This document shows positions 3,347-41,063 of a stretch of DNA of 42,996 nucleotides, piece by piece. Numbering within the stretch: the first letter of the stretch is position 1; the number at the start of each line of letters is the position of its first letter. Location of the stretch: IMG/VR virus record IMGVR_UViG_3300036820_000317, positions 1-42,996 of that record; one strand, written 5' to 3'. The DNA is from a virus. A model generated the notes under the pieces. The model saw only the letters and a program-made list of their open reading frames with translations. It did no database searches and had not been told where the DNA came from. A program made the translations under genes and the position numbers.

Positions 3347-3362
3347 TATTTCGCGCGGAATA
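3347..3362. promoter_or_regulatory. ATTYCGCGCGRAAT palindrome, site 1
   Basis: TATTTCGCGCGGAATA, a palindrome with one central-flank exchange, about 20 bp upstream of the small gene starting at 3329. One of eight dispersed copies; candidate ParB-type binding site. Confidence 0.75.
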
Positions 3363-3393
3363 GCGGACGCGAGGGCGGGACGTGGTACCGGGA

Positions 3394-5748
3394 TCACGCG
3401 AGGGGAAAGCCGGCGTCTTGGGCAAAGCCGTCGATCGCGCCGAAGGCCGTGATGATTTTCGTCCTCGGCATCGGCGGAGGGCCGGGGCCGAGCTGCTCGG
3501 GGAACTCCCAGCGCACGCTGGTGATCACGGCGTTCACCGGCGTGACCGCGTCGTCGCTCGCGGCGTTGAGCGAATCGACCAAGGCGGCGACCAACTGGCC
3601 GACGCCCAACCCGAAAGCGATCAGGTTGAAGCTCAGCTCCAAAATCTGCCGCGTCTCGCCGTACCATTGAAACGCCATGTAGGCGATGTCGGCCATCAGG
3701 TCGCGATCGTCGCGGATCGGGCCGCCGCTCGTGCTCTTCACGAGCTCGCCGTTCTCGACGTTGACCACCGTGTTCGGCGCGACCCAATGGAACTTGGCCT
3801 GGCTACCGACGTCGATGATGAGCACGCGCAGCGCGTCGGGGCCGCTGCCGTCGCCTTCGTCGTCGTAATAACTCGAGGGGTCGGCCGGATAGCTTTGTTG
3901 GACGAATTGGTCGGCCGCGATCGCCACGGTGACCCCGACGTCGGTCCGCCAATTGATTGAGTCGAATTCGTCCAAGACGTTGTCCCAAGAGCCGGCCGGG
4001 GAAAAGTCGGCGCTGGCGATCATGTAGGGGAAATCGCCCATGTCGAGCACGACGCCCGGAAACAGTTCTTGCGGGCGGATCGACGCGGCGAAGGGCGATT
4101 GCAACACCTCGTTCCGCGAAAAGGCGTTGAAGTGCTCGAGGTTGACGTATTGGCTCTCCAGCGCGCTGGTGGCCGAAGGAAACGGCACATCGGCCGCGGC
4201 AAAGATCGGAATATATTCCCACGCTTGGCCGGCGGGCGTCGTGTCGGTGACCGCGTCGTCGGCGATGTTCGAGCCTGAATAATCGTGGTTGAACTTGAGC
4301 GGCGTCTGGTGCTCGATGCGGAGGCCCGGGATCCAGAATGGCAGCGGATCGTCGCTCTCGCCCTCGTCCATGTCGTCGGCCGGCAAATAGGGCGTCGAGC
4401 CTTCGTAAGTGACGCCGGACCAGGTCGTCGAGGGGCCGAAATAGCGGTAGACGCGTTTCAGCGAATCGGCCGAGCGGGCAATGTCGTCGGCGATGTTTTT
4501 GTCCGAGTTGCCGAGCGCGCTGTAGCCGGCCTGAGCGCTCGCGCCGGCGTTGTAGGTCGATTGGTCCGAGTCGCTCCAGTGCGCGGTGAGCGTGCCGCTC
4601 TCGCCGTCGATCGTGAACACCGCGCGCACGCGGTCGCCCATCACGGTCACCTGGTCGAACGATTCGGCGTTGGTGGCCCGAAGCCGGCAGCTTTCCACGT
4701 CGGGCGAGTGGTCGATGTCGAGCCCGACCTGGTCGGCGTTGGCATAGACGGTGTTCGTGCCGACGGTGAGGTTGCTTTGGTTGAACGAAAACGGGTTGAG
4801 CACGATCGTGTCGCCGGCATCCTCGTCGCCTTCGTCGACGGTGAGGTAAAAGCCCATCAGGCGGCGTCGGTCCATGAGCTGGTCGAGGAGTTGCTTGACG
4901 GTGCGTTTTTCGGCAACGACGCGCGGCTTGTCCCACCAGGGGGCAAAATAGCTGGGAGAGATTTCCCAGGGGATGACTTGGTCGCCGTCGGCGTTCTTGG
5001 GCGTCATGTATTGCAACAAATACCCGGCGATGTAGGCCGTCGACCAGAATTGCGAATCGCTCGAGCCCAGCACGCCGGCGAAGACGTAGAAGCCGTCGGT
5101 GTCGAGCGACTGGCTCATGTTGCCGATGTCGGCCTGCTGGTTCGGCTCGTTGAATTCTATCGCCCTGCCGATCGTGAACGTGCCGCTCAGGTCGGCCTTG
5201 AAGCACACGCTGGTGGTGACCTGCGTGCGTTCCAAAAGGATTTCGAGGCCCAGGGCCGTCACGAGCTGCCGACCGGTGCGCACGTAGGGGCTCAGGTCGC
5301 CGTCCATGTCGTCGAATTCGTCGCCCAAGAGGCCGTCGAGCTCGTCGCCATCGAGATCGTCGAAATCGAAATCGCCGGCCACGGCCGTGCGGGCGATCGA
5401 GCCGCCGCGGTCGTCGGTGATCTGCTCGATGACGCCGTACCAGGCATAGGTCGAGTCGTCGGCCGGATTGGTGACCACGAGTTTCAGATAGGTGCCGAGC
5501 CAATCGCCGGGGACGAGCGGCGCGACGACGGAAAACGACGTGTCGCCAAAATCCATCCGCTCGCCGTAGCGCCAGGTCAGTTGGGCCTGGGGGATTTCTG
5601 GATTGACGCACCACAAAAGGTAATCGCACCAGAACCCGTCGAGCTCTTCCCAATCGTCGTCCCACGAATCGCGGCCGTAGACCACGGGCGCGGCCGCGTC
5701 GCGGAAGAGCGGATCGGCCGACCAGGTGAGGGTGGTGACGGAGGTCAA
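3394..5748 (-). CDS. putative tail hub/baseplate protein
   Basis: This 784-aa late protein lies between the fibre-like proteins. The N-terminus is beta-rich (1-115, with GYLKLVVTN-like strands and WYGVIEQI), followed by a strikingly acidic stretch (about 126-152, alternating Asp with Leu/Gly/Phe). A long mixed domain follows, with VVAEKRTVKQLLDQLMDRRRLMGFYLTVDEGD near residues 285-310, a pattern compatible with baseplate-hub proteins that carry an injection-machinery fold. The C-terminus has a hydrophobic helix (LSFNLIAFGLGVGQLVAALV). Size, position after tape-measure and tail genes, and domain texture suggest a tail-tip or hub component. No family was identified with certainty. Start ATG 5748 is the only plausible one; a family-1 repeat lies immediately upstream. 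Confidence 0.65.
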   Translation of the reverse strand: MTSVTTLTWSADPLFRDAAAPVVYGRDSWDDDWEELDGFWCDYLLWCVNPEIPQAQLTWRYGERMDFGDTSFSVVAPLVPGDWLGTYLKLVVTNPADDSTYAWYGVIEQITDDRGGSIARTAVAGDFDFDDLDGDELDGLLGDEFDDMDGDLSPYVRTGRQLVTALGLEILLERTQVTTSVCFKADLSGTFTIGRAIEFNEPNQQADIGNMSQSLDTDGFYVFAGVLGSSDSQFWSTAYIAGYLLQYMTPKNADGDQVIPWEISPSYFAPWWDKPRVVAEKRTVKQLLDQLMDRRRLMGFYLTVDEGDEDAGDTIVLNPFSFNQSNLTVGTNTVYANADQVGLDIDHSPDVESCRLRATNAESFDQVTVMGDRVRAVFTIDGESGTLTAHWSDSDQSTYNAGASAQAGYSALGNSDKNIADDIARSADSLKRVYRYFGPSTTWSGVTYEGSTPYLPADDMDEGESDDPLPFWIPGLRIEHQTPLKFNHDYSGSNIADDAVTDTTPAGQAWEYIPIFAAADVPFPSATSALESQYVNLEHFNAFSRNEVLQSPFAASIRPQELFPGVVLDMGDFPYMIASADFSPAGSWDNVLDEFDSINWRTDVGVTVAIAADQFVQQSYPADPSSYYDDEGDGSGPDALRVLIIDVGSQAKFHWVAPNTVVNVENGELVKSTSGGPIRDDRDLMADIAYMAFQWYGETRQILELSFNLIAFGLGVGQLVAALVDSLNAASDDAVTPVNAVITSVRWEFPEQLGPGPPPMPRTKIITAFGAIDGFAQDAGFPLA

Positions 5749-5754
5749 GGGCGC

Positions 5755-5784
5755 GGTGAGGGGTTAGGGTGAGGGGTTAGTGAC
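5755..5784. repeat. family 1 spacer repeat
   Basis: Two copies of GGTGAGGGGTTAG in tandem upstream of the 784-aa gene start. Confidence 0.85.
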
Positions 5785-5826
5785 GAAGAGGCACCGGCCC
5801 GGAGCCGGCCGGCGTCTCTTCATCAC
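5780..5826. terminator. intergenic hairpin, possible terminator or processing site
   Basis: Outer stem GTGA/TCAC and GAAGAG/CTCTTC (5785-5790/5816-5821) closes over an inner CGGC-rich stem around 5793-5812. It lies just downstream (minus strand) of the 106-aa gene stop. There is no T-run on either strand, so intrinsic termination is uncertain. Confidence 0.35.
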
Positions 5827-5849
5827 CAGGCCCTCGGCGGTGTGACCCG

Positions 5850-6170: not shown

Positions 6171-6191
6171 CGTGATTTCTCCGGCGGGAAA

Positions 6192-7712: not shown

Positions 7713-7728
7713 CATTCCGCGCGAAATG
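7713..7728. promoter_or_regulatory. ATTYCGCGCGRAAT palindrome, site 2
   Basis: CATTCCGCGCGAAATG immediately upstream of the start codon at 7707. One of the eight dispersed copies. Confidence 0.75.
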
Positions 7729-10635: not shown

Positions 10636-10714
10636 CTGAGGGTGAGGGGATCGGGTTAGGACGCGCAAGCGGCCGCTTCCCTTATTCGCGTGATTCGTGT
10701 TATCCGTGGTTTAC
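10636..10714. repeat. family 1 repeat followed by GTGATTCGTG repeat (family 3)
   Basis: GCTGAGGGTGAGGGG at 10636-10661, then ATTCGCGTGATTCGTGTTAT and CCGTGGTTTA at 10685-10714. Family 3 recurs at 34582-34611 and 39581-39614 in the same orientation. Confidence 0.75.
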
Positions 10715-11577
10715 TCTTCTTCGCCTGCGTCCTTAGCTCCTTCCCCGCATGGCGGCGATCCATAGCTCTCCCCGGCTGGGCTCGTGCCCGGGCCGCAGGC
10801 CGGCGCACCAGGCGAGGGTTTCGAGCAAGCGGGCGCTGGGGCATCGGGCGTTTTTTTTTGCGTGCCGTTGAATTCCTCGACGGCGGGCACGTCGACGGCC
10901 AACATCAGGACCTCGAACAGGTTGTCGCTATCGATCCAGTGCAACAAGTGCTGCTCGGCGAGGCCGAAGCGATAGTTCACCCCGAGCACGCGGATCGCGA
11001 AGCGCAGGGCCTCGGCCCGCGATAGCTCGCCGCGGCTGCGGTCGATGAAAAAATCCCAGATCGGCGCGGCGTCTTCCCACAGTCGCCGGTGCGACTCCTT
11101 GACGCGCACGACGAGCTCGCCGGCGGCGTCGAGCGAAAGATCCTCGGGCAGCGACGTGGCGCCGCGCGGGCTGCGCAGGATCGGCACGTGCAGAGAAGAG
11201 GGCGACGGGGCGGAAAGCGGAAGCTTGTAGCCGCGGCGGATCGCGCGGCGCTCGAGGTCCTCGGGCGTCGGCGGATATTCTTTATCCAGGCCGATCCACA
11301 GCTTGTCGGTCACGCGCTGCCAAGTCTGCAAACGCGGGCAATAGGTGGCGCGCTTCGGGGCGCCCCCTTTCGCCGGCAAGGGAATCAGGACCGTCCCCGA
11401 ATCGCCGCTCGGGCCGGCTTTGGAAAGGTCGAACAGGGCGGCGTGGCTCTTCTCCGTCACGTCGGCCAGGATTTCCTGCAGGCCGCAGGAGGCCAGTATT
11501 TCGCGCGAAATCTTTCCCCGCGCGCAGACCAGCGCCGGCAGCGCGACTTTCGGCAAAAAGTAAAGGATTCCGGCCAT
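10711..11577 (-). CDS. putative tail assembly chaperone with -1 frameshift site
   Basis: A 288-aa protein between the tail tube and tape-measure genes, the place of G/GT-type chaperones. The ATG at 11577 is chosen; the longer frame only adds repeat-encoded residues. Near the 3' end the coding strand has nine A's (10859-10851; CAA AAA AAA ACG). In the zero frame what follows is a low-complexity Pro/Ser/Gly tail. In the -1 frame it reads NARCPSARLLETLAWCAGL and then a segment with ELWIAAMRGR, ending at a stop at 10733-10735. That is natural protein sequence with better GC3, resembling the C-terminal part of short tail chaperones. A programmed -1 shift giving two products is therefore likely. 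The palindrome at 11497-11512 lies in this gene. Confidence 0.65.
   Translation of the reverse strand: MAGILYFLPKVALPALVCARGKISREILASCGLQEILADVTEKSHAALFDLSKAGPSGDSGTVLIPLPAKGGAPKRATYCPRLQTWQRVTDKLWIGLDKEYPPTPEDLERRAIRRGYKLPLSAPSPSSLHVPILRSPRGATSLPEDLSLDAAGELVVRVKESHRRLWEDAAPIWDFFIDRSRGELSRAEALRFAIRVLGVNYRFGLAEQHLLHWIDSDNLFEVLMLAVDVPAVEEFNGTQKKTPDAPAPACSKPSPGAPACGPGTSPAGESYGSPPCGEGAKDAGEEE
10733..10859 (-). other. probable -1 programmed frameshift extension
   Basis: The slippery A9 tract at 10851-10859 is followed by a -1 frame of about 40 codons ending in TAA. The -1 frame has the C/G-rich third positions seen in real genes here, whereas the zero frame does not. It corresponds to the T part of a G/GT tail assembly chaperone pair. 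Confidence 0.55.
11497..11512. promoter_or_regulatory. ATTYCGCGCGRAAT palindrome, site 3
   Basis: TATTTCGCGCGAAATC, a perfect 14-bp palindrome inside the tail-chaperone gene, where it encodes part of KISREIL. Confidence 0.75.
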
Positions 11578-11582
11578 GGGGA

Positions 11583-11600
11583 AGTTGCTAGTGGTTAGTG
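11583..11600. repeat. family 2 repeat
   Basis: GTTGCTAGTGGTTAGTG between the 288-aa and 68-aa genes. An inverted relative (ACCACCAGCAACTAGCAAC) lies at 11809-11826, bracketing the 68-aa gene. Confidence 0.7.
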
Positions 11601-11794
11601 CGTTTCTTCGGCGGCGGTTTGACACCCACTCTTTCTTCGACGGCGCTCAGCCGCTCCTCGTGATCTTCGATCGTCTCGGGCAGGTGAACGACGCTGGCGG
11701 CGATCTCCGACGTCTTGCGCCAGATGCGGTGCAGGTAGGGCAACGCCCCGGCGATGATCAGCAGCTCGATAATGCGGTACATTTGCTCGTTCAT
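11588..11794 (-). CDS. small membrane protein, holin-like size
   Basis: A 68-aa protein. An N-terminal hydrophobic helix (residues 7-22, RIIELLIIAGALPYLHRI) is followed by a charged amphipathic helix (LPETIEDHEERLSAVEERV, 38-56) and a basic tail. One membrane helix plus a cytoplasmic coiled coil resembles small holin- or XhlA-like phage proteins with inverted order, but no family signature is certain. It sits between the tail tube and tail chaperone genes and is bracketed by inverted copies of a family-2 repeat, so it may be an inserted cassette. Confidence 0.5.
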   Translation of the reverse strand: MNEQMYRIIELLIIAGALPYLHRIWRKTSEIAASVVHLPETIEDHEERLSAVEERVGVKPPPKKRTNH

Positions 11795-14530: not shown

Positions 14531-14923
14531 CTACGTCTTTCCGACTCGATCCGGGATTCTGCGGGCGAACTCCAGGGTAAAACTGTGCGGGGTGACCTCC
14601 GTCGTGCGGCCTTGAAAGCTGTAGGTCCAATCCGGGAAGCACTGGCGGACGATCGCGTCGCCGATCCGCGGTTCCTGGATTCCGCCTTTCGCTTCGGCCG
14701 GGTCGCGGCCGATGCGGACCAAAATCTTTTGTTCTCTGATCTCTTCGAGCTGACGCTCGGCCAGGTCTTCCGGCGCGTCGCGGACGACGCACACGATCTG
14801 CGCGTCGGACGCGCCCGGGCGCTTGTAGGTCACCGTCTCCGCGAATTGATCGCAGTTGAGGATGACGTTGTAGAAGTTTTCCTTTCTGGCGAGCTTCAGC
14901 GACATGAGCAAGAAATCCAGCAT
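14531..14923 (-). CDS. putative head-tail joining protein
   Basis: A 130-aa protein. An N-terminal helix (MLDFLLMSLKLARKENFYNVI) precedes a beta-rich body with CDQFAETVTYKRPG, IVCVVRDAP and a C-terminal TPHSFTLEFARR. The opening plus the phrase on TYKRPGASD resembles small head-closure (lambda FII / gp7-like) proteins whose beta core starts with a description of a tile-like strand. It follows the capsid gene and a 244-aa structural protein, consistent with a connector ring. It is flanked on both sides by inverted repeat pairs. Confidence 0.6.
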   Translation of the reverse strand: MLDFLLMSLKLARKENFYNVILNCDQFAETVTYKRPGASDAQIVCVVRDAPEDLAERQLEEIREQKILVRIGRDPAEAKGGIQEPRIGDAIVRQCFPDWTYSFQGRTTEVTPHSFTLEFARRIPDRVGKT

Positions 14924-15007
14924 GGCAGGGTGAGGGTGAGGGATTAGAAAGGTCGAGGTTCGGCGACGCTCTGTTGTTCCTCCCTAACCCCTCACCCTCG
15001 CCCTGCC
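14924..15007. repeat. inverted pair of family 1 repeats
   Basis: A 24-bp arm at 14924-14947 (GGCAGGGTGAGGGTGAGGG and following) pairs with 14984-15007 at 22 of 24 positions. It forms an intergenic stem-loop between two head genes. Confidence 0.85.
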
Positions 15008-15016
15008 CTTTCCTTA

Positions 15017-15751
15017 TTAGCCGTCGTAATCGGCCTTGTAGGCGATGCGGACGCGATAGATCACCGCGTAGCCGACGGCGGCGTTCGACGATTTGGCGAC
15101 CTGGGCGATCGGCTGTAGGTTGCCGGTGTAGGCCGACAGGTTGAAGCGGGTCGCTTGGCAGATGCGCCGCAACAGCGGCGCGGGGTTCGGTGAGCCGCTC
15201 ATGGCGATTTGTTCGGCGCTGAAAAGCACGTTCGATTGTCCGCCGGTAGCCAGCGAGCCTGCCGTCGAGGTCAATCCGGCGCCGAAATCCATCGAGCACT
15301 TGATGCAGGTCGTGCCGATCGTCTGGCCGCTATCGACCTGGCTGTTCGTGTTCGTGCCGTCCGAGGTCGAGATCAGGAGCTCGTTGGAACCGACGCAGCG
15401 GAATAGGGCGAATTCGCTGGCGGATTCCGGGGCGTTGTTGCGCGCCGTCGACAGGCCGAAGGCGACGTTGATGTGCGAATCGAGCGACGCGCTCACGCTG
15501 GCCCAGAAATCGACGCGCACCAATTTGCCGATCGGATATCCGAGCACGTCGCCCATGTAGAGGCACGCAGCTTGGGCTTCCGCCGTGCTGTCGAGCAGCA
15601 GTTTCATCCCGCCGGCGACGCCGAGCACGGAGGGGCTGCCGGCGGATTTTTCCAGGTACGAGCGCCAATTCATCGAGTCGGGCGAGCCCGCGAGCGGCGG
15701 GGCGGCCTGACCGGGCCAGCGGAAATCGTCGATCAATAGTGCTTTGGACAT
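15017..15751 (-). CDS. head-associated structural protein (possible decoration protein)
   Basis: A 244-aa protein directly downstream of the major capsid gene, where decoration proteins usually lie. It begins SKALLIDDFRWPGQAAPPLAG, followed by a Gly/Ser-rich beta domain with VRVDFWASVSASLDSHINVAFGLS (about 79-100) and IKCSMDFGAGLTSTAG. The sequence resembles a concanavalin-like jelly-roll, which occurs on capsid surfaces. It ends in RVRIAYKADYDG. No exact family is named. Confidence 0.6.
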   Translation of the reverse strand: MSKALLIDDFRWPGQAAPPLAGSPDSMNWRSYLEKSAGSPSVLGVAGGMKLLLDSTAEAQAACLYMGDVLGYPIGKLVRVDFWASVSASLDSHINVAFGLSTARNNAPESASEFALFRCVGSNELLISTSDGTNTNSQVDSGQTIGTTCIKCSMDFGAGLTSTAGSLATGGQSNVLFSAEQIAMSGSPNPAPLLRRICQATRFNLSAYTGNLQPIAQVAKSSNAAVGYAVIYRVRIAYKADYDG

Positions 15752-15815
15752 GGGGCGTCAGGGGGTTGAGTGGTCTGTTGCGGGGGGAGGGGACGGTCCT
15801 CAGAGCGTCAATGGT

Positions 15816-22195: not shown

Positions 22196-22587
22196 GGCCG
22201 CGCGGAAAAGCCCTTGTCGTTGTCGTCGCGCCGGCGCTGGCGATTGATCCGCTCCGCGATCTCTTTCTTCGGCACCTTCTGAGAATAGCTGCACCCCGTC
22301 GTGGGGCAATAATAGCGCGTGAAGAGCGGGCTGGACTTATTCGACGCGCAGCGCTGGCCGCAATACGGGCAGGTGATGATCAGCGCGTTCATGGGCGCGT
22401 GCTCCGGGGGCGCCGGCGGCTTGACCTTGCCGCCGGCGGCGGCGGGGCCGCGCTGCTCCTGGGCGGAGTCTTTCGGCCGGGCCGCGTCCGCGGCCTCGAT
22501 GCCCAGCGGCGGATTATTCCGCGCGGAATCGTTTTCCTGACGCGGTTTTTCAGTGGGCGCTTGGGGTCGCTTCGTCTGCTTGGCCAT
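22192..22587 (-). CDS. zinc-ribbon protein, possible Ogr/Delta-like activator
   Basis: A 131-aa protein. ATG 22587 is chosen because AAGGAGG lies 9 bases upstream, which the longer frame ignores. Residues 1-75 are Pro/Lys/Ala-rich and disordered. The C-terminal half carries CPYC, then 17 residues, then CPTTGC. C-x2-C...C-x4-C matches the spacing of the Ogr/Delta-type zinc finger that activates late genes in P2-like phages. It ends with a basic helix (KKEIAERINRQRRRDDND). It is placed directly after the large terminase. The palindrome at 22515-22530 lies in its N-terminal part. The Ogr call is inference. Confidence 0.55.
   Translation of the reverse strand: MAKQTKRPQAPTEKPRQENDSARNNPPLGIEAADAARPKDSAQEQRGPAAAGGKVKPPAPPEHAPMNALIITCPYCGQRCASNKSSPLFTRYYCPTTGCSYSQKVPKKEIAERINRQRRRDDNDKGFSARP
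22515..22530. promoter_or_regulatory. ATTYCGCGCGRAAT palindrome, site 4
   Basis: TATTCCGCGCGGAATC, a perfect 14-bp palindrome near the 5' end of the zinc-ribbon gene, where it encodes part of DSARNN. Confidence 0.75.
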
Positions 22588-25178: not shown

Positions 25179-26486
25179 TTAGCGCGTGCAATGGCTCGCT
25201 CGCTTGCGTGGCTTGGGTTTGGGCTCGGATGGTGCGCGCGAGACCTTGCGGCCGGTGAACTCTTCCCAGCGACGCACCGCCACGTCGCAATACGTCGGGC
25301 TCAATTCGACCCCGCGAGCCTTGCGACCGATCTGCTCGGCCGCGACGAACGCAGTGCCCGAACCGGCGTAAATATCTGCGACGATGTCGCCAGGATCGCT
25401 GTGATTCTGATAGGCGTTGACGTACAAAGCGGCCGGCTTCGTCGTCGGATGATCGGGCGATGCGCGCGGCCGGTCGATCTGCCACACGCTGGTGCGGTGC
25501 TCGCCCTTCATCGGCCGCCTGTGACGCTTCGTCCACGAGAGCAGGATCGGCTCATGCTGATAGTCGTAGTCCAGCCGGCCCATCGAAAACGTCGGCGAAT
25601 TTTTGACCCAAATCAGAATATGCCGAGCGGCTAGACCCGCTTTTTGCATCATCATCATCATCATCATCATTCCTAGGCCACCTCCTTGGGGACTGCAGAC
25701 GCAAAGAGTGCAATCGTCGGCCATGGCGCGCTCGCGCAGGACGACGAACGCGGCGAGCAATTCTTTTTCGAGTTCGTCGGGCGACAGGTCGTCGCCCGCG
25801 ATGTCCTCGAGACATCGTCCCGACTTCTTTTGGCGGTTCAGGTCGTCCGACTTCTTTTGGCGGTTCAGGTCGCGATTTTTCTTGCCGATGCTGACGCCGT
25901 AGGGCGGATCGGTAAACACGCATATCGCCCGATCGCCCTGCATGACACGATCGATATCCTCGGGACGCCGCGCATCGCCGCACAACAGACGATGCTCGCC
26001 GAGGAGCCACAGATCGCCGGGCCTCGTGAGGGGTTTCGCCGGCGGGGCCGGCGTGTCGTCGGGATCGCGTTGGGCGGCGGCAGAGCCGTCGGCCGAGGCC
26101 AGGAGGCGCCCGAGCTCCTCCGGGTCGAACGCCAGGAGCGAGAGATCGAATTCGAGCTTCGCGAGGTCCTTGAGCTCTTTCTCCAGCAGCGACTTCTCCC
26201 AATCGGCGAGCGTCGCGGTCTGGTTGTCCGCGATGCGGTAGGCCTTGATCTGCGCCGGCGTGAGTTCCTTCGCGACGTGGACAGGCACCTTCGCTAGGCC
26301 GAGCTGCGCCGCGGCCTTCCATCGCGTGTGCCCGCAAATGATGATACCCGTCGCGTCGACGACGATTGGCTGCCGGAAGCCGAACTCGCGGATCGACGCA
26401 GCGACCGCATCGACGGCCTGATCGTTGACGCGCGGATTGCCGGGGTAGGGCTTGATGGCCGCCGGCTTGCGAAATTCAATCTTCAT
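25179..26486 (-). CDS. DNA methyltransferase with N-terminal ParB-like domain
   Basis: A 435-aa protein (ATG 26486; the longer frame adds only Pro/Arg read-through). Residues 1-110 are a ParB-like domain (PYPGNPRVNDQAVDAVAASI, then GFRQPIVVD and IICGHTRWKAA). The C-terminal methylase has TDPPYGVS (DPPY, about 192-199) and later DIYAGSGTAFVAAEQIGRKARGVELSP, an AdoMet-binding motif. With DPPY first and AdoMet motif last it is of the beta class (N4-cytosine or N6-adenine). Two odd features: a 9-residue tandem duplication (DLNRQKKSD/DLNRQKKSG) directly after the catalytic loop, and eight consecutive Met from an ATG triplet run at 25647-25670. Both fall in the variable region between the motifs. 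Such genes often protect phage DNA from restriction. Confidence 0.85.
   Translation of the reverse strand: MKIEFRKPAAIKPYPGNPRVNDQAVDAVAASIREFGFRQPIVVDATGIIICGHTRWKAAAQLGLAKVPVHVAKELTPAQIKAYRIADNQTATLADWEKSLLEKELKDLAKLEFDLSLLAFDPEELGRLLASADGSAAAQRDPDDTPAPPAKPLTRPGDLWLLGEHRLLCGDARRPEDIDRVMQGDRAICVFTDPPYGVSIGKKNRDLNRQKKSDDLNRQKKSGRCLEDIAGDDLSPDELEKELLAAFVVLRERAMADDCTLCVCSPQGGGLGMMMMMMMMQKAGLAARHILIWVKNSPTFSMGRLDYDYQHEPILLSWTKRHRRPMKGEHRTSVWQIDRPRASPDHPTTKPAALYVNAYQNHSDPGDIVADIYAGSGTAFVAAEQIGRKARGVELSPTYCDVAVRRWEEFTGRKVSRAPSEPKPKPRKRASHCTR
25647..25670. repeat. (CAT)8 microsatellite inside the methyltransferase gene
   Basis: Eight perfect CAT triplets, encoding eight Met on the minus strand. 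Being triplets they alter protein length, not frame. Confidence 0.95.
25820..25872. repeat. 27-bp tandem duplication inside the methyltransferase gene
   Basis: 26 bp at 25820-25845 is repeated exactly at 25847-25872 (period 27), in frame, giving a doubled DLNRQKKS motif next to the catalytic DPPY. Confidence 0.95.
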
Positions 26487-26707
26487 TTGGGCGGGAGGAG
26501 GAGGAGGAGGGCAAATTTTTTCGCGCCGGGCGCCAAAAAAACGCAACCGATGAGGGCCCGTGCGGGGGCCGGTCGGCCGGAAGGACCCGGAGGGGGAGTG
26601 GTCACGGGGCACCGAGGCGGATCGAGGAAGTCGGAAGTGTCACGCGGATCGCGGATCGCGGAAACATTCCGCGCGGAATAATTCGGGAGGGCCTGTGCGC
26701 CGGCGGC
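26487..26707. other. intergenic region with site 5
   Basis: A 220-bp gap upstream of the methyltransferase. It holds a polypyrimidine tract on the minus strand directly before the start (no Shine-Dalgarno), GCGGATC direct repeats near 26644-26660, and the palindrome at 26665-26680. No gene was recognised. Confidence 0.5.
26665..26680. promoter_or_regulatory. ATTYCGCGCGRAAT palindrome, site 5
   Basis: CATTCCGCGCGGAATA, perfect 14-bp palindrome in an intergenic region. Confidence 0.75.
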
Positions 26708-29366: not shown

Positions 29367-31211
29367 TCACGCTGTTTCTGGCACGAGAGACGAACTCATC
29401 CCGCTCAAAATCTGCGGTACCATTCGTTCGGCCTGCTGCAGGGCGCCGATCGCGCCGGGATAACTCTTGGCAACGGCCGCATGCGCCGTTTGCCACGCCT
29501 GATTGATCGACGCGTCCTGATACGGGACGTAATTTTGCGGCGTCGGAGCGGCCGGCTTCGCCGCGGACGCGTTCGCCGCGATCGCTTGCGACGCGCTTGT
29601 CGCGGGCTGATTCTGCAGGATGATCGCCGGCGTCGATGGCTGAACCGCGGGCGCGGCCGGCTTCGGGCCCGCGGAGGGAGTGCTGGACATCGCGCCGCCA
29701 GGCGGCGAGGCGTTCGGAGGCGGCGTGCTCGCCGCCGTCGCGGTGGCGCCGGCGATTTTCTTCAGCGCTCCATTGCCGACGAACCAGAGCGCGCCGGCCG
29801 CCAGCAGCCCCGGAACGCCTGCGGCGCTTCCCAGGCCGAGCATTTGCGCCAGCGTAAGCCCTCCGGCCGCGGCCGTCGTCGCCGACGTGGCCGAGATCGC
29901 CGGCAACGCGGCTTGCAATGCCGTCTGTAGCGCCGCCGGCGTGATGGCCTTATTGAGGCTCGCGATTTGGCCGGTCACCTGCGTTTGCAAATTTTGCAAC
30001 GCCGTGTTCAAAGCCGGCAGCGTGCCGGCCTGCTGCGCGAGCTGTGTCAACTGGGTGTTGATCGAGGTCAGTCCGCTCGCGTTGGCGCCCCCGCCGGCCG
30101 TGAGCGTATCGAGTTCCGATTTGATCGCCGCCAACTGCCCCGTGAGATTCAACGGATCTGCGGCGCTAGCCGCGGCGGGTGATACTGCCGGCAACGCCGC
30201 CGGGGCAGTCCCCGGCGGCGGAACGGTCAGATTGATCGATCCGCTTACGGGCGGAGCTGAAGAAACCTTCGGATGCAGCCAGCGATAGAGTAGCCTGCGA
30301 ATTCGCGTGCAGCACGGTCCGACCGTAATGTTTTCCTTCGTGCCGCGGCCGTCGAGCATCCCCGCCAACTGCCCCCGCGAATTGAGGATCGGTCCGCCGC
30401 TGTCTCCCGATCGCGCCGAGCAGCCGGCCACTTCCAAAAATTCGGCCGCGTCCCCCTTCTCCGGAATGAGGAATTGGCTGAAATTGCCGCGTTGCTCCAG
30501 GAACTGATCGTTCGACCCGAACCCGGCGATGGCCAGCGGCTCGCCCGCGCGCGGCGGAGAATCGGCGAGCTCGAGCGGCGTCACGTTCGCCGGCGCCTGG
30601 ATCGCGATCGCCGCCACGTCCCAGATCGGGTCGCTCATCAGGAGCGAGCCGGCGGCGCGAACGCTGTTGGAAAAATCGACCTCGATCGACGGTTCGCCGG
30701 CGACGACGTGGCAGTTCGTGATCACCATCCCCACTCCGCGGCCGTCGACATCGATCAGCGTCCCGCTGCCCCATTTGCCGGGGCATTTTACGCGGACGAT
30801 CGGGGAAGCGGGCTTGAGGCGCGAGGCTTGAGTCTCGTAGCCCGCCCGGCGAAACATGCCGATCAACTCGCTGATGTCGTTTTGCCCAACGATCCGCTGC
30901 ACTTCGCGCCCATCGACGATCAGCACGAAGCAAGGAATCGACGCCACATGAAACTGCTGCGCCAGTGTTTTTTGCTCGTCGATATCCACCCGGCGCACCG
31001 GGAACCCGGCTGCGGCAAGTTGTTGCACGGCCGGCTCCATCGCGCGGCACGGGCCGCACCAATCGGCGCGAAAATCGAGCAGCACGATACTGGAAGCTCC
31101 GGACGAGCCGCCGAAGCATTGTGCGTGAACTTGCGACGCGAGCAGCTCGGCAATCACGAACGCCGAAGCCGCGACAAACAAGACGATCCATAGCTTCCAT
31201 CGCGGTTGCAT
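29367..31211 (-). CDS. secreted thioredoxin - trypsin-like protease fusion
   Basis: A 614-aa protein. Residues 1-30 form a signal peptide or anchor (WKLWIVLFVAASAFVIAELLASQVHA). Residues 40-125 are a thioredoxin fold with DFRADWCGPCRAMEP (Cys52, Cys55) and SIPCF carrying the cis-Pro (Pro93). Residues 135-300 are a chymotrypsin-like domain with GSGTLIDVDG, His168 in NCHVVAG, Asp198 in DVAAIAI, and Ser271 in RSGDSGGPI. A helical Ala/Leu/Gln-rich region (355-460) and a hydrophobic helix (LAAGALWFVGNGALKK) follow, then a long Ala/Pro/Ser linker and a final helical segment. A redox domain joined to a serine protease is very unusual in a phage. The two domains are joined by a segment encoded by a family-4 repeat (30811-30838). 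Confidence 0.85.
   Translation of the reverse strand: MQPRWKLWIVLFVAASAFVIAELLASQVHAQCFGGSSGASSIVLLDFRADWCGPCRAMEPAVQQLAAAGFPVRRVDIDEQKTLAQQFHVASIPCFVLIVDGREVQRIVGQNDISELIGMFRRAGYETQASRLKPASPIVRVKCPGKWGSGTLIDVDGRGVGMVITNCHVVAGEPSIEVDFSNSVRAAGSLLMSDPIWDVAAIAIQAPANVTPLELADSPPRAGEPLAIAGFGSNDQFLEQRGNFSQFLIPEKGDAAEFLEVAGCSARSGDSGGPILNSRGQLAGMLDGRGTKENITVGPCCTRIRRLLYRWLHPKVSSAPPVSGSINLTVPPPGTAPAALPAVSPAAASAADPLNLTGQLAAIKSELDTLTAGGGANASGLTSINTQLTQLAQQAGTLPALNTALQNLQTQVTGQIASLNKAITPAALQTALQAALPAISATSATTAAAGGLTLAQMLGLGSAAGVPGLLAAGALWFVGNGALKKIAGATATAASTPPPNASPPGGAMSSTPSAGPKPAAPAVQPSTPAIILQNQPATSASQAIAANASAAKPAAPTPQNYVPYQDASINQAWQTAHAAVAKSYPGAIGALQQAERMVPQILSGMSSSLVPETA
30811..30838. repeat. family 4 repeat inside the domain linker
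   Basis: GGCTTGAGGCGCGAGGCTTG plus AGTCTCG, encoding the linker between the thioredoxin and protease domains (YETQASRLKPAS) in frame. Confidence 0.6.
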
Positions 31212-33048: not shown

Positions 33049-33064
33049 TATTCCGCGCGAAATG
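33049..33064. promoter_or_regulatory. ATTYCGCGCGRAAT palindrome, site 6
   Basis: TATTCCGCGCGAAATG between the 116-aa gene and the 124-aa gene, about 50 bp upstream of the leaderless promoter. Confidence 0.75.
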
Positions 33065-33741: not shown

Positions 33742-34383
33742 TCACACGAGCAACGGCGCGCCGGCCGGCGCCGGCGCGGGTGGTTTGGGCGAATCATCGT
33801 CTCTTTGGAAATCGTCGTCATCATCATCATCGCGCGGGCCGCGCCAGTCGTCTTCGTCGCGGAAGAAAAAAGAGCATTCGAAACCCGCGATGCGAAGTCG
33901 GTCGAGCCATCCGGCCGTCCAGCGCACGTTGACGGCCTGCGCCGCGTGGCGGCCCGCGTCGGTCAGTCCCCAATGATGGCACGCGCAATTGCATCGCGTG
34001 AGGGCCTGCTGCCGCTTCGACCAGCTCGACCGCTCCGTCTGCACGAGCCCGGCCCGCTTGAGGGCCCCCATCGACACGAGTTGGATCGTCGCGTGAAACC
34101 CGCCGGCCGCGACGACGTGGCCGATCGCGTCGCGCGACCACCAATTCCAGCGTTGGGCATTTTCAAGCGCCAGCAGTGCCGCCAAGATCCGTTTCCGGTG
34201 CGCGCTCTGCTTCACGGGAGCCTCCAACCGGTGCGGTCCGCCAGCCACTGCCGGCAGATCTCGGCGATCGCCGCCGTTTCGGCCGGCCCTGTGTCCCTTC
34301 GCGAGCGCTCCCCTGGCATCGTCGATCAGAGACTCGAGTCGGCGCAGGCGATCCTTCCTCGATTCCATGACGGTCCCAATCAT
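33742..34383 (-). CDS. early DNA-binding-type protein with acidic tail
   Basis: A 213-aa protein. The start ATG overlaps the stop of the upstream 66-aa gene (ATGA), supporting 34383. The middle has a winged-helix pattern (HRKRILAALLALENAQRWNWWSRDAIGHVVAAGG, then LVSMGALKRAGLVQTER, HHWGLTDAGRHAA), followed by a segment with RCNCACHHWG (Cys/His). The C-terminus is Asp-rich (DDDDDDDFQRDDD) from an ATC/GTC triplet tract near 33820 and Pro-rich. It is probably a regulator; the family is not named. Confidence 0.6.
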   Translation of the reverse strand: MIGTVMESRKDRLRRLESLIDDARGALAKGHRAGRNGGDRRDLPAVAGGPHRLEAPVKQSAHRKRILAALLALENAQRWNWWSRDAIGHVVAAGGFHATIQLVSMGALKRAGLVQTERSSWSKRQQALTRCNCACHHWGLTDAGRHAAQAVNVRWTAGWLDRLRIAGFECSFFFRDEDDWRGPRDDDDDDDFQRDDDSPKPPAPAPAGAPLLV

Positions 34384-34581: not shown

Positions 34582-34642
34582 TCGTGTGTCCGCGTGATCC
34601 GGGGTTTACTTTTTTTTCTTCCTCGTCCCCCGTCCCTCGTCC
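34582..34642. repeat. family 3 repeat, then family 1 repeat encoding the ParB C-terminus
   Basis: GTGTCCGCGTGATCCGGGGT at 34586-34605, then CTCGTCCCCCGTCCCTCGTC at 34622-34641, which encodes the last residues of the ParB-like protein (GMDEGRGTR). Confidence 0.65.
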
Positions 34643-37248
34643 ATTCCCCCTAGCTCCTTCGGCAGCCTCGACTCCGTCTCCGCCGCGGCCATCAGTTGCT
34701 TGACCATCCAGCCCTTCGACTTCGCGCCGTCGATGTAGACGCCCAGTTCTTTGCCGAGGGCCTCGAGCTGCTCTTTGGTGTGCAGCTCGAAAAATCCTTC
34801 GGTGAGCGGGCCGGCCAGATTCTTTTGCCACTCGCGAGCCAGGTCGATCCCCAGCTCGCCGGCCAGTGCCGCCACGTCGTCGTCGGGAAACACCGTCCGC
34901 GGGCCGGCCTTGGCGTCGAACGCGAACCAGCGGCCCAGCAGCACACGCGCCGACGATCGCGGCAACTTGGTTTGCCCCAGCAAGCTCCAGGCGTCTCGGC
35001 CGCTGCCGCGGCCGGCGCCGACGGCGACGCGCAAATCGTCGAATCGGTAGCCGGTGCCCGGGGAAAACACGTCCCGCTCGACGGCAAAAAACATCAGCAG
35101 CTTGATCGCCAGCTCGATGCCGCTGCCCGCCGCCTCCAGGTCGCCGGCGATCCGCTGCGAGATCAGCCACCGCAGCCACACGATCTTCCACGCCGCCAGC
35201 CGGCGGGCGAACTGTGCCTGCAGCTCGGCGTCGCGCTTCTTTTGCTCGGCCGGCGAAAGTTTTGTCACCTTGGCCGGCTTGCTTTCCTCTTCGTCGCCGC
35301 CGCCGGCCGTTCGATTCTTGCCGCCTTTCTTGACCGTCTTTTCGTACGCGCCTTGCAGTTGCCAAAACAGCTTTTCGTTCATGGCGTAGCGCCGCGCGCC
35401 GCTTCCCCATTTCGACGGGGCCTCTACCACGTCGAGTTGGGCGAGTTGCTCGGGCGTGGCCCTGAACGTGCCGATCTGCTCGTAGGTCTTGCGGCGGTAG
35501 CGATACTTGTCGTCGAGATCACAGCCGACGGCCGCCACCGCCTCGCCGATATACCCCTGGAATTGCTCGAGCGTGCCGCAATTGCCGTCCGCCTTCATCC
35601 ACAGCGCCAGCTTCTTCAGCACCGCCGGATACTTGGCGACCGCCAACAATTCCTTGCCGTGCGACGGGCTCATTTCGCGCGAAATAATTTTGTCGCGCCA
35701 CTCGGTGGGCAGCTCGAGCAGCCGCACCAGGTTGGCCACGTAGCTCTGCGACCGCCCCAGCCGCGCGCCGAGCGCCTCTTGCGTGACGCCCGTCTCTTTC
35801 AGCACGCGGGCGTAGGCCGCGGCCCGCTCGATCGGATTGAGATCCTCGCGCTGATCGTTGGCCACCAGCGCCAGCTCCGCCATTTCCTGGTCGCTCACGT
35901 CGGCGACGATGGCCATGATCTCGCTGGCCTTCGCCAGCTTCGCGGCCCGCCACCGCCGCTCGCCGTCGACGAGCTGATAGGCCGCGCCGTGCAAGCCGCA
36001 TATTGCCGGCGCGGGGCGCACGCGGATCGGCTGCTGCAGCCCGTGCGTCGTGATCGATTCGGCCAGCGACGCCAGGGCCTCGGCGTCGAAGTCGCGCCGC
36101 GGCTGCCACGGATTGGGCGCGACTGCCTCGACCGCGATCAGCCGCAGGTCGCCGGCCGCGGCGGTCGTCTTGCCGGCCGAAGTCCGGCGCGCGCGGAGTG
36201 TGCCGAGCATGCCAGGCAGAGGCTCCGCCGCGCCGGGGTTGACGGTCCCGTTGTCCAAGGGCATTTCAGCCGGATCGTGCGGGCGCCGTCCGTCGCTCGT
36301 GGTTTGCTGGGTCGCCTCGGGATCGAAGACCGCGATCCCCGTCGGTGTCGTCGTGCTGACGCCGGCCGCCGCGGCCGACTTGCGAAGTACTTCGCGCTGC
36401 TCGGGCGTCGGCGGACCGCGATCGACGGTGGACGGGTTTTGGTCGCCATCGAATAAATTAGTCCACTCCTCCGCATTTCCCTGCACGGTCCCTTGTTCGA
36501 TGGTGGCCGATTTGCCGCTCTCCTCGAACGCCTCGTCCAGCACGTCGTCCCACGGCACGAGCCCCTCGTACACGCCGTCAACCGTCACCTGCATTCCCTC
36601 GCGCGTGCCGTTGAGCTTCGGCAGGCCGGCCATCTCCTGCGAGCCGATCGGGCCCAGCAAACCCGACAGGTAGCGGAGAGCTTCGTTGCGCGTGCGGCAC
36701 ACGGCGAGCGACCCGCCGTACACTCCGTTGCCGCAGGCCAGCAGATGCTCGATGGCCGCGTACTTGTCGACCAAGGAGAGGCTCGAGACTTGAGACGGTG
36801 CGCCTTGAGGATGCGAAGCGTCCGCCTCCTTCGTCGCCCCTAACCCGTCGCCCTCAACCTTGCTCGGCCCGTCGAATGTCCGCCCGCACAATCGCTCCGC
36901 CTCATCGAGCACGTCGTCCCACGGAATCGTGCGCACGACCGTGCTGATCGGATGGCCGGCGTCGATGATCTTGATCCCCTCGGGCTCGGAGTAGGCGCGC
37001 GAGTCGCCGGCGAGCTTCGGCCTGCGGCGCCAGTGCGTGATCCGCAGGCACCTGAGCGCCTCGGCGCGCGAACCGCAGGCCGCCAGCAGGCCCCCGGAGA
37101 CGGCCAAGAACTCCACGATGATGCGCCCGATCTGCGCGTCGTCGAGCGGCATCGCCGCGTCCGCCAACCGGAAACCGCGGCCCGCGGCCTTCTTACTCGC
37201 CCGTCGCCCCTGGCCCCGCGCCCCTTTGCTTTTCGTCGCCGTCGCCAT
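34606..37248 (-). CDS. parB: large ParB/Spo0J-family CTP-binding protein
   Basis: An 880-aa protein, GGAG before the ATG. Two N-terminal modules (about 45-122 and 165-246) are diverged duplicates sharing L-L-A-C-G, E-A-L-R-x-L and PWDDVLDEA. Residues 368-560 are a canonical ParB core: VAPNPWQPRRDF, HGLQQPIRV, the CTP-binding GERRWRAAKLA (429-439), ANDQREDLNPIERA (463-476) and an HTH (TQEALGARLGRSQSYVANLVRLL, about 489-511). The C-terminal 320 residues are helical and charged. Usual ParB is about 300 aa, so this one has large extra domains. No ParA gene was found. The gene contains site 7 of the dispersed palindrome and family-4 and family-1 repeats at the junction of its duplicated modules. 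It is the best candidate for recognising those sites. Confidence 0.85.
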   Translation of the reverse strand: MATATKSKGARGQGRRASKKAAGRGFRLADAAMPLDDAQIGRIIVEFLAVSGGLLAACGSRAEALRCLRITHWRRRPKLAGDSRAYSEPEGIKIIDAGHPISTVVRTIPWDDVLDEAERLCGRTFDGPSKVEGDGLGATKEADASHPQGAPSQVSSLSLVDKYAAIEHLLACGNGVYGGSLAVCRTRNEALRYLSGLLGPIGSQEMAGLPKLNGTREGMQVTVDGVYEGLVPWDDVLDEAFEESGKSATIEQGTVQGNAEEWTNLFDGDQNPSTVDRGPPTPEQREVLRKSAAAAGVSTTTPTGIAVFDPEATQQTTSDGRRPHDPAEMPLDNGTVNPGAAEPLPGMLGTLRARRTSAGKTTAAAGDLRLIAVEAVAPNPWQPRRDFDAEALASLAESITTHGLQQPIRVRPAPAICGLHGAAYQLVDGERRWRAAKLAKASEIMAIVADVSDQEMAELALVANDQREDLNPIERAAAYARVLKETGVTQEALGARLGRSQSYVANLVRLLELPTEWRDKIISREMSPSHGKELLAVAKYPAVLKKLALWMKADGNCGTLEQFQGYIGEAVAAVGCDLDDKYRYRRKTYEQIGTFRATPEQLAQLDVVEAPSKWGSGARRYAMNEKLFWQLQGAYEKTVKKGGKNRTAGGGDEEESKPAKVTKLSPAEQKKRDAELQAQFARRLAAWKIVWLRWLISQRIAGDLEAAGSGIELAIKLLMFFAVERDVFSPGTGYRFDDLRVAVGAGRGSGRDAWSLLGQTKLPRSSARVLLGRWFAFDAKAGPRTVFPDDDVAALAGELGIDLAREWQKNLAGPLTEGFFELHTKEQLEALGKELGVYIDGAKSKGWMVKQLMAAAETESRLPKELGGMDEGRGTRKKKK
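35671..35686. promoter_or_regulatory. ATTYCGCGCGRAAT palindrome, site 7
   Basis: CATTTCGCGCGAAATA inside the ParB gene, just after its HTH, encoding part of IISREMS. Confidence 0.75.
36778..36860. repeat. family 4 and family 1 repeats inside parB
   Basis: GAGGCTCGAGACTTGAG then CCCCTAACCCGTCGCCCTCA, both in frame, encoding the linker between the duplicated N-terminal modules. Confidence 0.6.
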
Positions 37249-37504
37249 TTGAAGCTCCTTCGTTGGTGTGAATGATTGGCAGCAGAAGCTGCCGTTTGTG
37301 CGCCCCGATGATCGCGATGGCCAGGTAATGCGCTGCCCGCCCCAAAGAATCGGCGGCCTCGGTCAACTCGCGGATCCAATCCTCCCCTTGAAACAGCAGC
37401 TCCGTCATGCGCAGCCGGCGGCGCATCAGATTGAGGCGCCCGGCTTCGGCCTTCAGCCGCCGCTCGAGCCGCGACATGCGTTTTTTCTTGCGGCGCGTGG
37501 CCAT
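37193..37504 (-). CDS. small basic protein before parB
   Basis: A 103-aa protein. Its ATG overlaps the stop of the replication gene (TGATG) and its end overlaps parB by 55 bp. The N-terminus is very basic (ATRRKKKRMSRLERRLKAEAG), then two helices (LNLMRRRLRMTELLFQGEDWIRELTEAADSLGRAAHYLAIAII). It could bind nucleic acid. Its place between the initiator and parB suggests a replication or partition accessory role, as inference. Confidence 0.6.
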   Translation of the reverse strand: MATRRKKKRMSRLERRLKAEAGRLNLMRRRLRMTELLFQGEDWIRELTEAADSLGRAAHYLAIAIIGAHKRQLLLPIIHTNEGASNGDGDEKQRGAGPGATGE

Positions 37505-38736
37505 CAGCGGCCCTCCTCTCTGGCGATGCGGGCCGCGCTATCCATCTCGTCGAGGAGCATCGCCCGGGCCATCCCGGACGCGACGGGATGATTGCGCAGG
37601 TCGGCGGCGAAGTGCCGGCGCGTGAAGGGCGCGAGCCGCGCGACGAGCTCGTCGAATTCGCATACGTCCATCGCGTCGAGCGCGGCGCCATGATCCCGCT
37701 CGAGCCGCTCTGCCTCGTCGCGCGCCGCCGCTTTGTCGCGCTCGACCTGCGCGACGATCGTCGAAGGCCGCACATGCCGTTGCCGCGCGAGGTATTCCTT
37801 CGACGCCGGCGGCCAAAGCGAAAGATCTTCCGGTGATTGTCCGGCGCGGAATCGAGTGGCCCGATAATACAAGGCCCCCGGGCCGCGCCATCGATCGGGC
37901 TGCGCCGTGTAGATGCGGATCAGCGCGAGAATCGATTGCGGAGCGATCCGTCGGTCACGAGCATCGCGGACGACTTCGGCCGCTTGCAAAATTCCCGCGG
38001 AAAAAAGTCCCTCCTCCACCTCGTCCCAAAACGCTTCCCTCGGCAAAGCGCGCAGCGCCGAAGAGGAGGTCGGAGGAGGTTTCGTTTCCTGTACGCTTCG
38101 GAACGCTTCGGGTGTCCCTGGGGCACTGCCGGCCGCCCCTGGGGCACTGCCGACAGTGCCTGGGGCACTGCCGACAGTGCCTGGGGCACTGCCGAAGCTA
38201 TCGTCCGCTTGACTTGCGTGCGGCACGACCGACCGTTCGGATGGCGGGCGGCGACGACGCATTGAGGAAGCGGGCGCTCCCCCTGTCAAATCGAACGAGT
38301 CACCTTCATCGCTGCCGGCGGAGGCCGGCTTCATGTGGGTGTCGGCGGGAGCCGGCTGCTTGCAACCGTAGCGGCCTGTCAAGAGAGCCAACTCCGACCA
38401 TACGATGCGGTAATAGTTGCAGTCGCGGCGACGGCCGTTCGTGCCGTCGCCGCGCTCGACGATCAATAATCCGGAGCCGGTCAAGGCCTTCAGCGCGCGA
38501 ATCAAATGGCGGCGCCCCATATTGGCCGTGCGGGCCAATGTATCGAGCGACGGCCATGCCTCGCGGCCGCGACCGAAATCGTCGATCCAACGGAGCACCG
38601 ACTTCTGCACCTGCGCGGAGACCTTTTTCTGCGCTGACGTCTCGATCACGACGGCCGGTTTGAGGACGGCGGCGGTGAGGATCGCCAGTTGCTCGGCGCG
38701 TGAAAAATCGATCTCTTTCTGCTTACGGCTTTCCAT
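37504..38736 (-). CDS. replication initiator-like protein with iterons in its gene (lambda O-like)
   Basis: A 410-aa protein (ATG 38736, AAGGAA upstream). The N-terminal 110 residues hold a winged HTH: FSRAEQLAILTAAVLKPAV, PSLDTLARTANMGRRHLIRALKALTGSGLLIVER. A disordered Pro/Ser linker follows, with four GSAPGTV-like repeats, then a charged helical C-terminus (YLARQRHVRPSTIVAQVERDKAAARDEAERLERDH). The linker is encoded by four 21-bp DNA repeats (38117-38200). An N-terminal HTH plus iterons inside the gene is the layout of lambda O, which binds the origin within its own gene. No helicase loader or DnaB was seen, so the phage would use the host helicase. Confidence 0.7.
   Translation of the reverse strand: MESRKQKEIDFSRAEQLAILTAAVLKPAVVIETSAQKKVSAQVQKSVLRWIDDFGRGREAWPSLDTLARTANMGRRHLIRALKALTGSGLLIVERGDGTNGRRRDCNYYRIVWSELALLTGRYGCKQPAPADTHMKPASAGSDEGDSFDLTGGAPASSMRRRRPPSERSVVPHASQADDSFGSAPGTVGSAPGTVGSAPGAAGSAPGTPEAFRSVQETKPPPTSSSALRALPREAFWDEVEEGLFSAGILQAAEVVRDARDRRIAPQSILALIRIYTAQPDRWRGPGALYYRATRFRAGQSPEDLSLWPPASKEYLARQRHVRPSTIVAQVERDKAAARDEAERLERDHGAALDAMDVCEFDELVARLAPFTRRHFAADLRNHPVASGMARAMLLDEMDSAARIAREEGR
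38117..38200. repeat. four 21-bp iterons, candidate replication origin
   Basis: CCTGGGGCACTGCCG (15 bp) recurs exactly four times with period 21 (38117, 38138, 38159, 38180). The variable 6 bp make a CACTG-tcgg-CAGTG dyad between copies 2-3 and 3-4. An A/T-rich patch (37985-38006) lies 110 bp downstream in gene direction. Confidence 0.8.
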
Positions 38737-38770
38737 GCCAGATTCCTTGATCACCTTCCTTTCCTGGCGG

Positions 38771-38992: not shown

Positions 38993-39017
38993 GTCGAAGC
39001 TCCGTTTCTTTTAGGCC

Positions 39018-39270: not shown

Positions 39271-39280
39271 GTTGTGGTAC

Positions 39281-39583: not shown

Positions 39584-39614
39584 CCGCGTCATCCGTGTGA
39601 TTCGTGGTTTCATC
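39581..39614. repeat. family 3 repeat
   Basis: CATCCGCGTCATCCGTGTGA and TTCGTGGTTTCAT, same orientation as the copy at 10685-10714. Confidence 0.75.
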
Positions 39615-40107: not shown

Positions 40108-40113
40108 GCGGGA

Positions 40114-40146
40114 AATTAGGGTGAGGGTGAGGGGCGACGGGTTAGG
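40114..40146. repeat. family 1 repeat
   Basis: AATTAGGGTGAGGGTGAGGG and CGACGGGTTAGG between two early genes. Confidence 0.8.
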
Positions 40147-40321
40147 AAAAGAGCTTCGAAGCGCGCCGGCGCCGACGGACCAAAAAGCGTAGCGCGAATT
40201 CGTGTTCGCCCATGCGGGCGCCGGCGACGTCTTCGATCGACTGCCGCTGCGTCTTGCAAAGGCCACAGGGGAATTTCCGGCTGTGCCGGCACAGCCGGGC
40301 AATCGTCTGTTGCTTCGTCAT
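40142..40321 (-). CDS. 59-aa protein with Cys motif
   Basis: This short gene has a single clear reading frame. MTKQQTIARLCRHSRKFPCG is followed by LCKTQRQSIEDVAGARMGE, then a basic Arg-rich end. C-x7-C-x2-C plus His gives a possible small zinc-binding knuckle, and the rest is a basic tail. It overlaps a longer, out-of-frame reading that is low complexity and rejected. ATG 40321. Its function is unknown; location between coiled-coil and 124-aa early genes suggests a regulator. Confidence 0.5.
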   Translation of the reverse strand: MTKQQTIARLCRHSRKFPCGLCKTQRQSIEDVAGARMGEHEFALRFLVRRRRRASKLFS

Positions 40322-40329
40322 GGGTCACG

Positions 40330-40351
40330 CTGAGGGTGAGGGGCTAGGGGC
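40330..40351. repeat. family 1 repeat
   Basis: CTGAGGGTGAGGGGCTAGGG upstream of the 59-aa gene. Confidence 0.8.
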
Positions 40352-40369
40352 GCCGGACAAAGACTGCCG

Positions 40370-40744
40370 CTACCGCGATGACTGCGGCCGAAACGAGATC
40401 GACGGTCTCTCGAAAACCTCAAAGGCGTCCAAGATCGATACACATACATCTGTCCCCCCACCGAGGAGCTCGCGGGCCAAACGCATTGCGGCGACGCGCG
40501 CGACCGGCCCCATCGCGTTCCACCATTTCGACGCCGCATCCCTCGACACTGCCTGGATCCGCCGATCGATCATCTGCTGTGTCTGTTTGCACACGGCGCT
40601 CGCGAAAAGAAGTTCGTCGCGGGTCAATGACGCGACGAGCAGCGGCCTGTATTCGCCCGCCCTGAACTCGCACACTTGGACCGCGAGCGGCCGCGTTGAG
40701 GTCGGTTCGTGCGGGATCGCCGTCTTCGAGTGGATGCCGTTCAT
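40370..40744 (-). CDS. small early protein, unknown function
   Basis: A 124-aa protein with GAGGTG 8 bases before ATG 40744. The sequence looks alpha-beta: LAVQVCEFRAGEYRPLLVASLTRDELLFASAVCKQTQQMIDRRIQAV, then a helix (KWWNAMGPVARVAAMRLARELL) and VCVSILDAFEVFERP. It lacks any recognised domain. Upstream of it lies site 8 of the palindrome. Confidence 0.6.
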   Translation of the reverse strand: MNGIHSKTAIPHEPTSTRPLAVQVCEFRAGEYRPLLVASLTRDELLFASAVCKQTQQMIDRRIQAVSRDAASKWWNAMGPVARVAAMRLARELLGGGTDVCVSILDAFEVFERPSISFRPQSSR

Positions 40745-41063
40745 CGTTTCACCTCGTGGGGGTTGGTTTCGCGGTTTGTGGATCGGGGGCCAGAGGCCCG
40801 ACATTCCGCGCGAAATAAAAGGGCGGCCGGCCGCGGCGGTCCTGGTACCGCGGCGCGGTCGCCCCGGTGTCCGCCGCGCGACGAGCGCCGCGGACCGTCA
40901 TCGATTAAGGCTCGTGGCCACAGGCTCCAGGTTGAAGGAAGCAGGCGCCCTTGGGGCTCCACGGCGCGCCGCGCGGGCATGCCGGCCTGTCTGCCGCACC
41001 TGCAGCCCGCGGCCGCGAGCCTCAAGTGAGGGTGAGGGGGAAGAGGGACGATACCCCTCGTCC
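40745..41063. other. intergenic region with site 8, no gene seen
   Basis: A 319-bp GC-rich gap between the integrase stop and the next gene. It contains the palindrome at 40802-40817, a GGCTCGTGGCC / CAGGCT patch, and after the integrase stop a 7-bp hairpin GGGACGA/TCGTCCC (41046-41065) built from a family-1 repeat. No open frame was convincing. Confidence 0.5.
40802..40817. promoter_or_regulatory. ATTYCGCGCGRAAT palindrome, site 8
   Basis: CATTCCGCGCGAAATA, 58 bp upstream of the start at 40744. Confidence 0.75.

Follow-up and report, generated by a model that had tools for sequence, protein, structure and literature searches.

The window analysed here, a 42,996-bp viral record of IMG/VR (IMGVR_UViG_3300036820_000317) taken at its full length, encodes a lambda-type portal, a GpA terminase, an S49 protease-capsid fusion and an integrase, and is a lambda-like temperate phage. 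It carries eight exact copies of a 14-letter palindrome, ATTYCGCGCGRAAT, and encodes an orphan ParB. Sequence comparisons suggest that this protein almost certainly binds the palindrome, that the palindrome is very probably its loading site, and that the protein is quite likely to act as a cytidine triphosphate (CTP) sliding clamp. On balance, we lean towards the view that ParBs with Q173 and S, T or A at 201 (Caulobacter numbering; array-type ParBs hereafter), reading the half-site ATTYCG, may form a third ParB/Noc specificity class, used by orphan phage ParBs for a ParA-free coating of the whole genome from loading sites selected for even spread.

The eight copies had been reported in the first-pass annotation as far more than expected, and this was confirmed: about 1000 scrambled palindromes made of the same half-site letters had a mean of 0.016 copies in the window, and the best-scoring of them reached two copies, all such palindromes being near-identical variants of the ATTYCGCGCGRAAT site. 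Numbered along the window, sites 1 (3348..3361, ATTTCGCGCGGAAT), 2 (7714..7727, ATTCCGCGCGAAAT), 5 (26666..26679, ATTCCGCGCGGAAT), 6 (33050..33063, ATTCCGCGCGAAAT) and 8 (40803..40816, ATTCCGCGCGAAAT, near the integrase) lie between genes. Site 3 (11498..11511, ATTTCGCGCGAAAT) is within a gene at 10711-11625, where its minus-strand reading is I-S-R-E, site 4 (22516..22529, ATTCCGCGCGGAAT) is within a small gene adjoining the terminase, and site 7 (35672..35685, ATTTCGCGCGAAAT) is within parB itself, at codons I522-S523-R524-E525 directly after the helix-turn-helix; several relatives also have a site inside or adjoining parB. The same division of five and three, already proposed, was obtained with a home-made codon-usage gene caller, whose gene positions are approximate. 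A supposed ninth copy at 16225/16226 (ATTGGGCGCGGAAT) did not hold up: it has two mismatches, a level at which shuffles yield about two matches, and therefore provides no evidence for the array. The window contains no G1/A6 version of the parS core GTTTCACGTGAAAC, its count of the A1/C6 Noc binding site (NBS) ATTTCCCGGGAAAT is zero, and the string ATTTCGCGCGAAAT did not occur in the literature searched.

The orphan ParB (34606..37248, minus strand, 880 residues) consists of an N-terminal extension, a CTP-type ParB_N domain (368-464), an HTH_ParB domain (468-548) and a long C-terminal region. Its recognition by the annotation from GERRWRA and NDQRE motifs is borne out by the family models, with 89 bits for PF02195 (ParB_N, cut-off 26), 76 bits for PF17762 (HTH_ParB, cut-off 22.6) and 161 bits for TIGR00180 (cut-off 58). 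Both the CTP box GERRWRA (pattern GERRxRA) and NDQRED (the N-x-Q-R motif) are retained. The structure model, good for the core only (about 366-580) and left uninterpreted in the low-confidence N- and C-terminal regions, matches Noc and ParB structures and also those of KorB.

The only close relative of this ParB found in IMG/VR is encoded by G001 (IMGVR_UViG_3300036820_000432), the identity being 59% along the whole protein and 70% within the core. G001 contains seven exact copies of the motif and no near-copies. The DNA of the two elements is identical only in a few blocks and almost nowhere else; sites 7 (35672) and 8 (40803) match G001 sites in place, the latter within 97.7%-identical DNA, and the remaining sites fall outside alignable DNA, so that the array persists although its positions shift. 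As a separate observation, the blocks at 33798-34308, 36747-37513, 40802-41057 and 42870-42996, which include the N-terminal part of parB, are 94-100% identical to G001 amid unalignable DNA, suggesting recent exchange.

IMG/VR was also scanned for the bare motif alone, the full pattern being counted per record afterwards. Most records were single-copy and a few had three to seven copies. An array-type ParB was present in six of the seven records with at least four copies (G006, G015, G019, G035, G044 and G056, but not G060) versus three of the 76 single-copy ones (G011, G072 and G092; Fisher P 1.5e-6). ParB is moreover the sole protein family common to all eight array records (G000, G001, G006, G015, G019, G035, G044 and G056), integrase and capsid reaching four. 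The motif is thus present in other elements with an array-type ParB, which supports the earlier claim that the palindrome is a site of the ParB/Noc type linked to the orphan ParB that the element encodes. One could argue that some other protein, of phage or host, owns the sites and that ParB is a bystander, as some array records have no detectable ParB; however, no other family is shared by the eight records, the palindrome is built like parS and NBS and has A1 as predicted, and the specificity residues of ParB track the site, making this explanation very improbable. A stricter rule, that every multi-copy record holds an array-type ParB, was tried and failed for G018, G052-G055, G058, G060 and G061, many of them short fragments. 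Three records deserve separate mention. G060 (IMGVR_UViG_2831870349_000003), related to G055, has an array of four copies and one near-copy; in G056 (L444), parB occupies two reading frames at 14552-16322 on the minus strand, through a frameshift or an assembly error; and the two ends of G044 (about 40-100 and 46733-46792) share no fewer than 59 identical bases, so that this record may be a complete circle.

The pairing of site and protein extends to individual residues. Jalal and co-workers established that R173 reads G1 in ParB, that Q173 reads A1 in Noc and that Noc R201 reads C6 (PMC7383237). In the window ParB, Q501 (codon 35746..35748), at the start of the predicted recognition helix, is equivalent to Caulobacter ParB R173 and to the Q of Noc, and S529 (codon 35662..35664) to Caulobacter ParB G201 and to the R of Noc. 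All array-associated ParBs have Q at 173 with S, T or A at 201, the residues of the H209 and H477 proteins being read by eye, whereas 75 of 80 chromosomal ParB loci are R/G (the phage protein of G047 excluded) and Noc is Q/R. The DNA around these 80 loci contains the motif in none and an exact parS core in 28. The half-sites are GTTTCA for parS, ATTTCC for NBS and ATTYCG for the array phages. When the central two bases were freed, the single-copy records with an array-type ParB rose to three (G011), three (G072) and four (G092) sites, while G047, a single-copy record with a strong ParB of the other specificity (R/G), stayed at one; the recognised half-site is therefore most likely ATTYCG. We strongly infer that the helix-turn-helix of array ParBs reads ATTYCG and that Q173 recognises A1, as it does in Noc; S/T/A201 correlates with a G6 where ParB sites have A6 and Noc sites C6. 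A ParB-family site is in itself a known kind, and a G at position 6 has not been described for ParB or for the related Noc. The specificity switch at position 6 would thereby gain a natural third letter, A for ParB, C for Noc and G here, reached mostly without the permissive lysines required by the Caulobacter scaffold.

The comparison of helix-turn-helix residues with Noc and ParB, suggested by the annotation, thus agrees with Noc at 173 and departs at 201 from both Noc (R) and ParB (G). This bears on a second idea of the annotation, a Noc-like tether to the membrane or the nucleoid. Q173 and A1 are as in Noc, the sites are dispersed, and the best NCBIfam score of the protein, 180 bits, is with the Noc model TIGR04285. 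This score, however, is far below the Noc cut-off of 315, R201 and C6 are absent, and the window ParB has no strongly hydrophobic segment of transmembrane strength (amphipathic helices were not modelled), so that we consider a tether quite improbable.

Bacterial chromosomes seldom contain the motif, as would be expected if it belonged to the element: two copies were counted in eight genomes (about 41 Mb) drawn from several phyla, and 34 of 392 Planctomycetota genomes hold any, with 48 copies in total. In G209, the four copies all fall in a 42-kb stretch of a 6.76-Mb contig, with none elsewhere; in G477, three lie within 22 kb and two far away. These are the only long single-chromosome clusters among the 392 planctomycete genomes, both come with phage genes and a Q173/T201 ParB, and both are prophages. 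They suggest planctomycetes as the hosts of such elements, on the evidence of the G209 and G477 relatives rather than of the window's own host. A scan of genome contigs with the whole ParB gave no matches, and a second scan gave mainly canonical chromosomal ParBs, which served as controls. Some further features of these genomes may be recorded. The three clustered copies of G477 (contig C1: 2553506, 2562702 and 2575529) all extend to GTGATTYCGCGCGRAATCAC, a 20-bp palindrome; G213 has four unclustered copies over three contigs, a possible chromosomal use of the site; and G292 has two copies 258 bases apart (C57:11853 and 12111) with no ParB in the surrounding 15 kb.

The integrated relatives also bear on partition. 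The annotation had considered a dispersed centromere, as with the SopB sites of N15; such a centromere would partition an extrachromosomal form, perhaps with a borrowed host ParA. The protein is of the ParB family, the sites are several and dispersed, and parB adjoins the gene of an O-like replication initiator (37504..38754, minus strand; phrog_391, 1.5e-9). On the other hand, no AAA_31 (PF13614) ParA was found in nine records including the window, where the annotation had also noted its absence; the control search was positive in 14 of 14 genomes, and other motor types were not searched. The ParA-binding motif (L/F/I)G(K/R)G(L/F/I), as defined in PMC12704722, is in none of the ParBs checked. 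In addition, the window encodes a tyrosine integrase (41064..42203, minus strand; PF00589, 3.6e-5, slightly below the curated cut-off), and the H209 and H477 elements are chromosomally integrated. Integration of these two and the missing ParA disfavour partition, which we regard as unlikely. The attachment cores assumed by the annotation fit weakly with a 15-bp direct repeat near the window ends, at 411 and 42841.

We thus return to a ParB clamp loading at the palindromes. From what is known of the family, a CTP-bound ParB dimer would load at each site, close as a clamp and slide; with a site every 5-10 kb, clamps from several entry points could blanket the phage genome in large part or entirely. 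The coat might then organise and mark the phage's own DNA, through compaction or as a platform for other proteins, with no ParA motor. We think it somewhat more likely than not that the array serves to coat the whole genome; that the coat serves organisation rather than silencing or partition is a tentative suggestion. The spacing of the sites is in line with coating. Window sites are more even than under uniform placement (P = 0.019 on a circle, 0.045 on a line), which upholds the fairly even spacing noted by the annotation, and so are those across records (Fisher-combined P about 5e-8 for circles and 5e-6 for lines).

The main and close rival shares the site-ParB pairing and differs in the purpose of the clamp. 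ParB clamps could load at dispersed operators, slide and silence phage promoters in lysogeny, in the manner of KorB of plasmid RK2, a ParB-family CTP sliding clamp that with KorA silences promoters up to 1.5 kb away (PMC11790492). The annotation had mentioned L5-type stoperators; the repressor would here be of the ParB fold, and KorB is therefore a closer analogue than the L5 repressor. The match of the structure model to KorB, the enrichment of sites between genes and the temperate look of the array elements would all suit such silencing. However, the spacing of about 5-10 kb exceeds the 1.5-kb reach of KorB, 22 of 50 sites are inside genes, and no KorA-like partner, for which no search was made, is known here. 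We therefore consider long-range repression possible but doubtful.

Several observations weigh against the reading of the palindromes as loading sites for genome-wide coating by an array-type ParB. First, sites are over-represented between genes (28 of 50 versus 10 expected, by the home-made gene caller), which is also compatible with regulation, and some records, unlike most, show no significant evenness of spacing (single-record circle P 0.002 to 0.16). Second, no ParB is detectable in G018 (43.6 kb, three copies) or G060 (39.3 kb, four copies), neither obviously a short fragment; G053, G061 and others are also multi-copy without ParB, but these records are short. Third, the counts are of records and not of independent lineages, as a quick tree based on a short domain puts 11 of 13 array-type phage ParBs into one group, with two of unsure place. 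Finally, the window ParB has L179 and E184, and most array-type Q173 proteins do not have the lysines at 179/184 that the Caulobacter scaffold required for a working Q173.

Other features of the window are unrelated to the array. Searching with the terminase gave no close relative among the IMG/VR viruses, and among annotated phages only matches under 27%. The frame at 25179-26612 (minus strand) encodes a fusion of ParB_N with an N6/N4 methyltransferase (phrog_498), a second ParB_N protein missed by the annotation, with eight consecutive methionines and a duplicated DLNRQKKS stretch in its reading frame. At 29367-31211 (minus strand), one protein combines thioredoxin with a trypsin-like protease behind a hydrophobic N-terminus, which is unusual for a phage; it has a relative in G044.

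Compared with known systems, the phage ParB resembles that of chromosomal ParABS in its CTP-type ParB_N and HTH_ParB domains, in a 14-bp palindrome of the same plan and in a site within parB. In Bacillus subtilis, a parS site likewise lies inside the parB gene itself, spo0J. In the phage system, Q/S,T,A replaces R/G and ATTYCG replaces GTTTCA; no ParA or ParA-binding motif was detected, sites occur over the whole element and not near an origin, and the protein has long extra N- and C-terminal regions. With Noc-NBS it shares Q173 with A1, an orphan ParB and many dispersed sites; it has S/T/A201 and G6 where Noc-NBS has R201 and C6, mostly does without Lys 179/184, falls below the Noc model cut-off with no membrane segment seen, and is phage-borne. 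Like KorB-OB of RK2, it pairs a ParB-family predicted clamp of a mobile element with dispersed sites, but the sequence relation is weak (about 24% in the structure match), and neither KorA, which was not searched for, nor IncC was identified. The OB sequence of KorB is unrelated to the phage palindrome. The closest resemblance in setting is to the orphan mobile-element ParBs surveyed by Hocher, Le (PMC12704722), which, in the accessible part of that survey, have the CTPase fold, no ParA motif and a prophage location, and are common on phages with a role described as not known. Unlike in that part of the survey, where DNA sites are not given, one orphan group now has a predicted binding site, together with specificity residues and chromosomally integrated examples, and its function is therefore directly testable.

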